64,000 nt of DNA, from positions 2,979,773 through 3,043,772 of the forward strand of contig NZ_LT575468.1 in the NCBI RefSeq assembly GCF_900087055.1, given 5' to 3'. This document shows, one piece after another, positions 34,315 to 38,057 of the stretch. The notes beneath the pieces are model-generated. The model ran no database searches. It was not told where the DNA came from and worked only from the letters and a program-made list of their open reading frames with translations. Numbering within the stretch: the stretch's first letter is position 1; each line of letters opens with the position of its first letter. The stretch comes from Plesiomonas shigelloides. Lineage in GTDB: Bacteria > Pseudomonadota > Gammaproteobacteria > Enterobacterales > CAMTGL01. Made by a program: the position numbers and the translations under genes.

Positions 34315-35955
34315 TTATTTCTGGTTGGGATTCCCCAGCTGCCGCAGAACCGGTAATAAATCACTGGCCAGCATTCCGCGCATTCCCTGTAACGCACATT
34401 GGTCAGCCGCCGCGCCATGCAGTAATACTGCCGCGCAAGCCGCATCCTGTAAGGGATCAGCTGTACCTTCCGTAGCTTCGTTATGCAGATCATAGCATTG
34501 CCGCGCGTAAATACAGAGAGTCTGTGCCAAAAGCGCTGCACAAATGCCACACAAAACATCGCCGCTGCCACCGGAAGCCATTCCCGGATTTCCGACATCG
34601 GCTAGCGCAATATGTTCCCGATCCGCAATTAAGGTTCCGGCACCTTTGAGGATCACCACGCCGCCCCAACGCTTTTGTAACTGGCGCACAGCGGCAAAAC
34701 GGTCTTGTTCGATATCCGCAATTGAGCAGCCTAACAGACGCGCAGCCTCCCCTGGATGCGGGGTCAGTATATGGTTAGCGCGATGACGCGGCTCAGTACC
34801 CGCACTGCGCGCGCCGGCTTGATTGGCTTGATCTAAAAAACGTAATGGATTGGAGGCCAGCACATTCAGCGCATCCGCATCCCAGATCGTTGGTTTACCC
34901 GCAGCCTGCACCGCCGCCACGATCTCCTGCGCCCAGGGGCCTTGCCCTAAGCCCGGCCCGCACGCAATCACGTCCGCCCACGCTAACGCTTCTTGCAGCG
35001 AGGCGGGAGTATAAACGTGCGCCATCACTTCTGGGCAGCGGATGAGCAATACCGGCACATGTTCGGCGCGCGTCAGTACCCGCACTAAACCCGCACCGCT
35101 TCGCAGCGCCGCTTCTGCCGCCAAACACACCGCGCCACCGGTTCCCAGCTCACCGCCAAGCACCAACACCTTGCCATGCTCGCCTTTGTGGCTACAGGGT
35201 CTACGCGCCGGTAAATAGCGCGCTAAATCCGTGCGCGATAGGCGCAGCCAAGGCGAAGAGTGAGTCGCCAGCCACGCATCAAGCCCGAGCGCGGCATAAT
35301 ACACCGCGCCGGTATAATCGCGCGCCTGACCGGTAAACAGCCCACGCTTAAGAGCCACCAGTGTTAACGTCGCCTTGGCGCGCACCGCAACACCGGCCAC
35401 CGTGCCGCTGTCGGCCTGTAACCCCGAAGGGATATCTAACGCTAGCACCGGCATAGAGTGAGTATTCACCCACTGGATAACCTTGGCCAATTCAGGGCGC
35501 ACTGCGCCGCGCACACCAATGCCCAGCAGTGCATCCACCACCAAATCGGCTTGGGTGTCTAACCGCGCCAGATCGTGTAGCAGATGGCCGCCTTGCGCCA
35601 ACCACGCCTGCAATGCTTGCTGCGCCGGTTGCACCAGCGTTTGCCCCGCAAAGGGCGGCATATAGACACTGACGCGCACACCCGCTTGGGCAGCCAGCGC
35701 CGCCAAGACCAACCCATCGCCGCCGTTATTGCCGTTGCCGCATACAATCACCAGACTACGCAGGTCAGGGTAATGCTGCTCAATCCACTGCCACGCCGCG
35801 GCACCTGCGCGCTGCATCAGTTGCCACAATGAGATCCCCTGCGCCGCCGCGGCCTGCTGCTCGGCCCGACGGACCCACGCGGTATCGTATAAGGAATGTG
35901 GTAAACTGGACGCTATCTGTGCTGCTGCCTCTTCACAACGAATTGATCTATCCAT
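34315..35955 (-). CDS. nnr: Bifunctional NAD(P)HX epimerase / ADP-dependent NAD(P)HX dehydratase
   Basis: Repairs hydrated NAD(P)H. The N-terminal YjeF_N epimerase domain (about 15-225) has VCGNGNNGGDGLVLA, VVDALLGIG and DIPSGL; the C-terminal YjeF_C dehydratase (about 235-545) has HKGEHGKVLVLGG, GLGQGPWA, WDADALN, TPHPGEAARLL and GNPGMASGGSGDVL for ATP/ADP binding. The start is uncertain: the ATG at 35955 overlaps the start codon of divergent queG, and the frame extends to 35973. First gene of the nnr-tsaE-amiB-mutL-miaA run. Confidence 0.95.
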   Translation of the reverse strand: MDRSIRCEEAAAQIASSLPHSLYDTAWVRRAEQQAAAAQGISLWQLMQRAGAAAWQWIEQHYPDLRSLVIVCGNGNNGGDGLVLAALAAQAGVRVSVYMPPFAGQTLVQPAQQALQAWLAQGGHLLHDLARLDTQADLVVDALLGIGVRGAVRPELAKVIQWVNTHSMPVLALDIPSGLQADSGTVAGVAVRAKATLTLVALKRGLFTGQARDYTGAVYYAALGLDAWLATHSSPWLRLSRTDLARYLPARRPCSHKGEHGKVLVLGGELGTGGAVCLAAEAALRSGAGLVRVLTRAEHVPVLLIRCPEVMAHVYTPASLQEALAWADVIACGPGLGQGPWAQEIVAAVQAAGKPTIWDADALNVLASNPLRFLDQANQAGARSAGTEPRHRANHILTPHPGEAARLLGCSIADIEQDRFAAVRQLQKRWGGVVILKGAGTLIADREHIALADVGNPGMASGGSGDVLCGICAALLAQTLCIYARQCYDLHNEATEGTADPLQDAACAAVLLHGAAADQCALQGMRGMLASDLLPVLRQLGNPNQK

Positions 35956-37150
35956 GACATCATCATCCGCCACGCCTGCGGCCCCTGATTTGGTTCAGTT
36001 GGCCCAATCTATCAAGCAATGGGGTAAATCGCTAGGTTTCCAGCAGGTTGGCATTTGCCTGCCAGACTTGCGTGAACACGAGCCACGCCTACAAGCGTGG
36101 CTGGATAATCACTACCATGGTGAGATGGGGTGGATGGCGAGCCACGGCATGATGCGCGCACGCCCTAGCGAATTGCATCCCGGTACGCTACGGGTGATCA
36201 GTGTGCGGATGAATTATCTCCCGCCCGATGCCCGTTTTGCTAAAGTGCTGCGCGATCCACTGAGCGGCTACATCAGCCGTTATGCGCTGGGGCGCGATTA
36301 CCACAAATTGCTGCGCCAGCGTCTCAAACAGTTGGGCGAAAAAATCCAAGCCGAAGTCGGCGCATTAGGCTTTCGCCCGTTTGTAGACTCCGCCCCCATT
36401 TTGGAGCGGCCACTGGCCGCCAATGCTGGCCTTGGCTGGGTTGGTAAACACTCACTATTGCTTAATCGTGAAGCAGGCTCTTGGTTTTTCTTGGGCGAGT
36501 TATTGGTGGACTTGCCGCTGCCGGTCGACACACCAGTAGAGCAAGAGTGTGGGCGCTGCGTGGCCTGCATGACCACCTGTCCGACCGGCGCGATTGTTGC
36601 GCCCTATGTGGTCGATGCACGGCGCTGTATCAGCTATCTGACTATCGAATCAGACAGCGCTATTCCGCTCGAACTGCGCCGTACGTTGGGTAACCGTATT
36701 TATGGCTGTGATGACTGCCAGCTAATCTGCCCGTGGAGCCGAGTCGCACCGCTGACCGAAGAAGCCGATTTTGCGCCGCGCGCGCCTCTGCATACCCCGC
36801 AATTACTAACGCTATGGCAGTGGGATGAAGCCACCTTCTTGCGCCTGACCGAAGGCTCGCCGATTCGGCGCATCGGGCATCGCCGCTGGCTGCGTAATCT
36901 GGCCGTAGCGCTGGGTAACGCCCCGTATCAGGCCGACATCGTGCTGGCCTTGCAAAGTCGCTTAGGGGCGGATGAATTGGTGGATGAGCACATTCAGTGG
37001 GCGCTGGACGAACAGTGGCAAAAACGCAGTGCCTTAGCCATTAGCGTACAACCTGCAACCGAACAAAACATCAACGCCAGTTCGGTGCAGACAACCCAAC
37101 AGCGCCGTCTGGTGCGCGCCATCGAAAAAGGATTGCCACGCGACGCCTAA
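35954..37150 (+). CDS. queG: Epoxyqueuosine reductase QueG
   Basis: Cobalamin-dependent reductase for the last step of queuosine synthesis in tRNA, 398 residues. Conserved VRMNYLP, RYALGRDYHKLLR and FVDSAPILERPLA lie in the cobalamin-binding part. Two ferredoxin-like [4Fe-4S] cysteine sets follow: CGRCVACMTTCPTGAI and CDDCQLICPW. A C-terminal HEAT-like region ends in IEKGLPRDA as in E. coli. Its ATG overlaps that of divergent nnr, so the promoter must lie inside nnr. Confidence 0.97.
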   Translation: MTSSSATPAAPDLVQLAQSIKQWGKSLGFQQVGICLPDLREHEPRLQAWLDNHYHGEMGWMASHGMMRARPSELHPGTLRVISVRMNYLPPDARFAKVLRDPLSGYISRYALGRDYHKLLRQRLKQLGEKIQAEVGALGFRPFVDSAPILERPLAANAGLGWVGKHSLLLNREAGSWFFLGELLVDLPLPVDTPVEQECGRCVACMTTCPTGAIVAPYVVDARRCISYLTIESDSAIPLELRRTLGNRIYGCDDCQLICPWSRVAPLTEEADFAPRAPLHTPQLLTLWQWDEATFLRLTEGSPIRRIGHRRWLRNLAVALGNAPYQADIVLALQSRLGADELVDEHIQWALDEQWQKRSALAISVQPATEQNINASSVQTTQQRRLVRAIEKGLPRDA

Positions 37151-37570
37151 TTTTCTCTGCAACGCCACCGCCGATAATCCCTACGCTTAGCCACAACCTA
37201 TGCAACGCCCAATCCGCATCGGCGCGAAACGGATCACTAATTATCACAGTCGTGATTGACGGATGCACCGCAAGGCGTTCTTACACTGGGGATATGTGGA
37301 TAACAATTTAAAGCAGGGCGTAAACCGACGCGCAAGCAAGTGGCCAGTTTTAGTGATGCAGCACAGGAAAATCCCGTGATTACGCAGGATTAGCGGCTTC
37401 CACGGGCAAAGTTCAGCATAAAAAGCTGACTTTCTGCAGTGGTTCAGTAGGCGTAAAGCTGTGGATAACTCTGTTTACAGGTGCGGCAACGCCACGCGCC
37501 ACAGCGCATAGACCCGCTTGTGTATAACGGTCTGAACACAGAGGAAAACAGTTAAAGAATCCGCAGACGA
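37151..37570. other. DnaA-box cluster in the position of E. coli datA
   Basis: No gene is visible between queG and the tRNA terminator. Three DnaA boxes in the same orientation are present: TGTGGATAA at 37295-37303, TGTGGATAA at 37460-37468 and TGTGTATAA at 37519-37527 (reverse complements of TTATCCACA and TTATACACA). A one-mismatch box in the opposite orientation, TTAGCCACA, lies at 37187-37195. E. coli datA, the DnaA-ATP hydrolysis and titration locus, lies at the same place beside glyVXY. I saw only weak IHF-like sequences near 37300. Confidence 0.65.
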
Positions 37571-37571
37571 C

Positions 37572-37590
37572 AAAAAGCCCTCGAGGGCTA
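37572..37590 (-). terminator. Terminator of the glycine tRNA operon
   Basis: On the minus strand AGCCCTCGAGGGCT followed by TTTTTG, a short perfect dyad about 50 bases after the last tRNA. Confidence 0.8.
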
Positions 37591-37640: not shown

Positions 37641-37716
<76 letters not shown>

Positions 37717-37751
37717 ACGGTATGTCGGCATGCTCATCTTACACATCAGAT

Positions 37752-37827
<76 letters not shown>

Positions 37828-37871
37828 ATCGCAGAATGTGTAATCTGAGGTTTTACGTCGTGATGGCTGTC

Positions 37872-37947
<76 letters not shown>

Positions 37948-37981
37948 ATTCACAGAGAACAGACATCGGACGGTGTAAGTT

Positions 37982-38057
<76 letters not shown>

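Follow-up and report, generated by a model that had tools for sequence, protein, structure and literature searches.

The present locus raises the question of whether a cluster of DnaA boxes beside a glycine tRNA operon of Plesiomonas shigelloides is the datA of this genome and, if so, in which form it has been kept. E. coli datA is the DDAH locus, with a 183-bp minimal region that holds boxes 2, 3 and 7 and the IBS; its requirements are taken here as stated in later papers and reviews. No description of datA outside E. coli was found in the literature searched. P. shigelloides is an early-branching enterobacterium (PMC8826520), and the genome analyzed is a 3.406-Mb single contig of the Enterobacterales (in the GTDB sense), from which a stretch of 64,000 nucleotides (64 kb), termed the window, was examined. 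One other member of its family was found among the relatives searched, the sister species G001, with a QueG that is 77% identical.

The boxes lie in a gene-free gap of exactly 490 bp, bounded by the queG stop (37150) and the first tRNA-Gly gene (37641), as claimed in the preliminary description of this DNA, and the three perfect boxes of the same orientation (37295, 37460 and 37519) and the opposite box with one mismatch (37187) that it listed were all confirmed in the sequence. Its placement of the cluster at the syntenic position of E. coli datA likewise agreed with the gene order. In the window this order is queG - boxes - tRNA-Gly(GCC) array - orn - rsgA - psd, the same as in E. coli MG1655 (orn - glyVXY - gap - queG), such that the cluster is located between queG and the tRNA-Gly genes. 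The array consists of four tRNA-Gly genes in the window compared to three in E. coli. A rho-independent terminator separates the tRNA genes from the boxes, and a terminator-like stem followed by a T-run was detected by eye at the equivalent place of the sister sequence. In E. coli, tRNA-Gly transcription likewise runs toward the datA boxes through a terminator (PMC10950094).

Table. Features of the datA locus and its flanks (positions are those of the window).
Feature	Position	Strand	Sequence	Remarks
queG (epoxyqueuosine reductase)	35954..37150	+		other flank of datA
Opposite-strand DnaA box	37187..37195	+	TTAGCCACA	one mismatch; not kept in sister species
Conserved block with Dam site	37224-37242		GCGAAACRGATCACTAATT	upstream of box 3
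Conserved block	37255-37262		ATTGACGG	upstream of box 3
Weak inverted box	37279..37287	+	TCTTACACT	two mismatches; inside conserved box 3 block
DnaA box 3	37295..37303	-	TTATCCACA	9-mer-perfect; 165 bp from box 2, same direction
Most conserved stretch between boxes	37357..37379			19/23 identical in sister species; permutation P = 0.00035
Weak IHF-like match	37369..37381	-	AATCACGGGATTT	two mismatches; PWM score within shuffled range
DnaA box 2	37460..37468	-	TTATCCACA	9-mer-perfect; part of 21/21 E. coli datA match
Box 7 (low-affinity DnaA box)	37472..37480	-	CTGTAAACA (E. coli TTGTAAACA)	12 bp from box 2, E. coli offset
Box 1 equivalent	37519..37527	-	TTATACACA	9-mer-perfect; not kept in sister species
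Rho-independent terminator of tRNA-Gly operon	37576..37589	-		between tRNAs and boxes (attenuator position)
Four tRNA-Gly(GCC) genes	37641..38057	-		transcribed toward box cluster

Comparison to E. coli datA revealed that box 2 is directly followed by a low-affinity box 7 of the same direction, which had been overlooked in the earlier work, and that positions 37459-37479 are 21/21 identical to box 2 plus box 7 of E. coli, the 21-mer CTGTGGATAACTCTGTTTACA being shared letter for letter. Numbers were assigned to the E. coli boxes by match to the minimal datA, and E. coli box 3 through box 7 corresponds exactly to the published 183 bp. By this numbering, boxes 3-2-7-1 are equal in order and direction in the two genomes, with intervals of 165/12/59 bp in the window compared to 162/12/67 in E. 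coli; the high-affinity boxes 2 and 3, for which a distance of about 161 bp in the same direction is typical of datA, are both on the minus strand. Measured from the queG stop, boxes 3, 2, 7 and 1 lie at 145, 310, 322 and 369 in the window and at +14, +176, +188 and +243 in E. coli. The location of box 3 about 130 bp further from queG (145 bp compared to 14) would favor the earlier suggestion that the cluster is a second, diverged version of datA with a different box order and spacing. This suggestion was not upheld, however, since the functional boxes match E. coli in order, in direction and nearly in spacing. Furthermore, a genome-wide search for the box 2 plus 7 core returned a single exact occurrence and, as the closest other match, one with two mismatches, and thus there is no second datA copy. 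A second diverged cluster was therefore rejected as highly improbable, and by its sequence the locus is the single orthologous datA of the genome.

A chance cluster of DnaA-box-like words was also considered by use of pattern searches of the genome, from which all cluster statistics are derived. The window contains 5 TTWTNCACA sites compared to 4.2 expected, a count that is not above chance and is what such a cluster would predict, but three of the five sites lie within 233 bp. Genome-wide, 106 TTATNCACA sites were detected compared to 42 for the reversed control pattern, and when 106 sites were placed at random, the probability of an equally tight cluster anywhere in the genome was P = 0.0034. 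Position, core and spacing are, in addition, common to dozens of genera, and this conservation is far stronger evidence than the cluster statistic. Based on the clustering and on the conservation across relatives, chance was rejected and is given virtually no credence.

The conservation was followed in QueG-anchored loci of 119 relatives and 80 named genome contigs, in which the DNA after queG was read. Box 3 was found 157-165 bp from box 2 in the Enterobacterales loci with the core (161 bp in most), and one Brenneria locus with the core had no perfect box 3. The core was absent in the loci of Shewanella, Alteromonas, Pseudoalteromonas and several further families. In the sequence examined after queG, tRNA-Gly was not found for loci L070, L076, L078, L079, L081, L086, L088 and L091, and core and spacing were observed to persist without tRNA-Gly after queG in Pectobacterium, Sodalis, Limnobaculum, Pragia, Photorhabdus and two Xenorhabdus. 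With core and spacing retained in such loci, control of datA probably does not involve tRNA read-through in every genome.

A datA-like locus was also observed after queG in the Vibrionales, where its architecture is related but different and uniform. Its likeness to the locus of the window is in the place after queG and in a core similar to boxes 2 and 7. The far box is 262-281 bp away, an opposite box is 18-19 bp from box 2 in most loci, and an IHF-like site is present at -122 to -127 in 28/28 loci (L106, L110, L112-L114, L116, L118-L121, L123, L126, L127, L129, L130, L133, L134, L136, L137, L140, L141, L145 and L146, together with L045, L049, L052, L057 and L064, these five having been assigned to the group by architecture). 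The literature searched contained no account of a Vibrio datA. The far box, the opposite box and the IHF-like site at these distances were looked for in the window and are absent, and a layout of the Vibrionales type was rejected.

The sister species was found to keep boxes 3, 2 and 7, with boxes 3 and 2 separated by exactly 165 bp in both species and no indels. The inter-box DNA is identical at 66/156 bases (42%), and the two species differ by 44 bp in the distance of box 3 from queG and by about 29 bp in that of box 2 from the tRNA. Retention of 165 bp despite diverged inter-box DNA and changed flank distances is what selection on loop length would be expected to leave, and at the level of sequence constraint is evident on boxes 3, 2 and 7 as well as on the length of the loop. 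Box 3 sits in a 32-bp block (37277-37308) that is identical in the sister, and the blocks GCGAAACRGATCACTAATT and ATTGACGG are kept in fixed register with it. Thus, among the boxes of the preliminary description, the two essential ones, at 37295 and 37460, proved to be conserved in the sister and those at 37519 (box 1) and 37187 did not. Box 1 is dispensable in E. coli (PMC10950094). The plus-strand box at 37187 is probably incidental. A clear box 4, the stimulatory box of E. coli datA, was not detected in the window, unlike in E. coli; the sole candidate is the two-mismatch inverted box at 37279, which is possibly a remnant of E. coli box 4 (TCATCCACA), an equation that we infer.

The position of the locus on the chromosome was compared to that of E. 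coli datA. The oriC of this genome corresponds to the mnmG-mioC gap (about 3,384,530-3,384,925), and datA is at a distance of about 368 kb of the 3.406 Mb, or 10.8% of the chromosome, and hence proximal to oriC. E. coli datA is similarly at about 10% of the chromosome, 10.1 min of 100 from oriC (84.6 and 94.7 min) (PMC5742627). Transcription of the tRNA-Gly genes points away from oriC and runs into datA in E. coli and in the present genome alike. With respect to mnmG-oriC-mioC, datA was observed toward mnmG and dnaA toward mioC. E. coli has the reverse arrangement, and both differences would be accounted for by a local inversion of the oriC segment. A DARS2-like cluster of DnaA boxes with one-mismatch IHF-like sites was observed between rppH and mutH (contig about 2844437-2845212). 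DARS1 and DARS2 (DnaA-reactivating sequences) are intergenic DnaA-box clusters like the locus under study but differ in neighboring genes and architecture, and the genome has this separate DARS2-like cluster.

The IHF site, without which E. coli datA is not active (PMC5742627), was examined in the relatives and in both species. In 31 other Enterobacterales loci that adjoin tRNA-Gly, a site resembling WATCAANNNNTTR and bearing an A+T-rich arm lies at a distance of 66-69 bp from box 2; a 50-column IHF profile ranked this site first in 31/31 left-out loci. Eleven further Enterobacterales loci agree, for a total of 42/42 with at least 10/13 at the canonical place. By contrast to E. coli, no recognizable IHF site was detected in the window: at the enterobacterial position (-67) the match was 9/13 in both species of the genus Plesiomonas, the level of shuffled sequence, and at the Vibrionales position (-124) neither the window nor the sister was above shuffled sequence. 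A profile scan of the whole gap gave best PWM scores within the shuffled range for both species, so that no IHF site stood out elsewhere in the gap. The IHF-matrix scan called for in the preliminary description thus revealed the site to be missing from its canonical place in the window and in the sister. As the canonical site is missing, we class the locus as a datA orthologue by descent but, in its build, as a variant rather than a standard datA.

The genome encodes IHF alpha and IHF beta, both above curated cut-offs, and Hda. The inter-box DNA of the window also differs from E. coli datA in having a G+C content of 49%; when all core-bearing loci of the Enterobacterales and Vibrionales are pooled, the median for the 150 bp before box 2 is 32%. 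Serratia, Edwardsiella and Pluralibacter have high-G+C genomes and yet keep, at -66 to -67, an IHF site that is A+T-rich, so that high genomic G+C is unlikely by itself to explain the loss of the site. At oriC of this genome, no match to the IHF consensus with at most one mismatch was observed. Since this oriC also lacks such a match, consensus scans may miss real IHF sites, and the IHF sites at replication loci of the genus may be generally degenerate.

Between the boxes, the stretch at 37357-37379 is unique in the genome and, by its conservation, is a candidate site for a DNA-bending factor. It is roughly the mirror image of the E. coli IHF position, at 69/96 bp from boxes 3/2 compared to 95/67, and it is overlapped by the IHF-like match of the sister (TTTCAAGGGCTTT, two mismatches), which is at the same place as that of the window. 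Sequence comparison thus points, as the most likely case, to a working datA in which the DNA would be bent via a relocated or degenerate IHF site or via another factor. For this bending, an IHF site at 37357-37381, relocated or degenerate, is considered first, the alternatives being another bending protein or a reduction to simple titration. That a datA without canonical IHF site would have its IHF site relocated and inverted (37357-37379), or IHF replaced by another bender, is advanced as a tentative proposal. A datA relic that merely titrates DnaA, its high-affinity boxes still holding DnaA near oriC after loss of IHF-dependent hydrolysis, would account for the disappearance of the canonical IHF site and A+T-rich arm from both species and for the free turnover of box 1 and of the plus-strand box; such a relic would, however, have no need of the low-affinity box 7, the fixed 165-bp spacing or the conserved inter-box block, all of which have been kept, and we regard it as unlikely.

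Taken together, these results argue with considerable confidence for an orthologous datA that would act through DnaA on boxes 3, 2 and 7, a bent loop, ATP hydrolysis and lower initiation at oriC. By analogy to E. coli (PMC5742627), DnaA binding, ATP hydrolysis and an effect on initiation would be expected at this locus. ATP-DnaA would bind in head-to-tail fashion to boxes 3, 2 and 7, bending of the intervening DNA would join the two box clusters, which are 165 bp apart, and the resulting DnaA oligomer would hydrolyze DnaA-bound ATP, which would lower oriC initiation after the datA locus has been copied.

Across several dozen genera, the nearly fixed parts of datA are box 3, the box 2 plus 7 core and the length of the loop, and its changeable parts are box 1, the tRNA neighbor and, in the genus Plesiomonas, the IHF site. 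In the E. coli model, the timed binding of IHF is the switch of datA, and this model is put directly to the test by a naturally occurring datA that lacks the usual IHF site. If true, the relocation or replacement of IHF would separate the needs of datA, namely the boxes and the loop length, from the means by which the loop is formed and timed.
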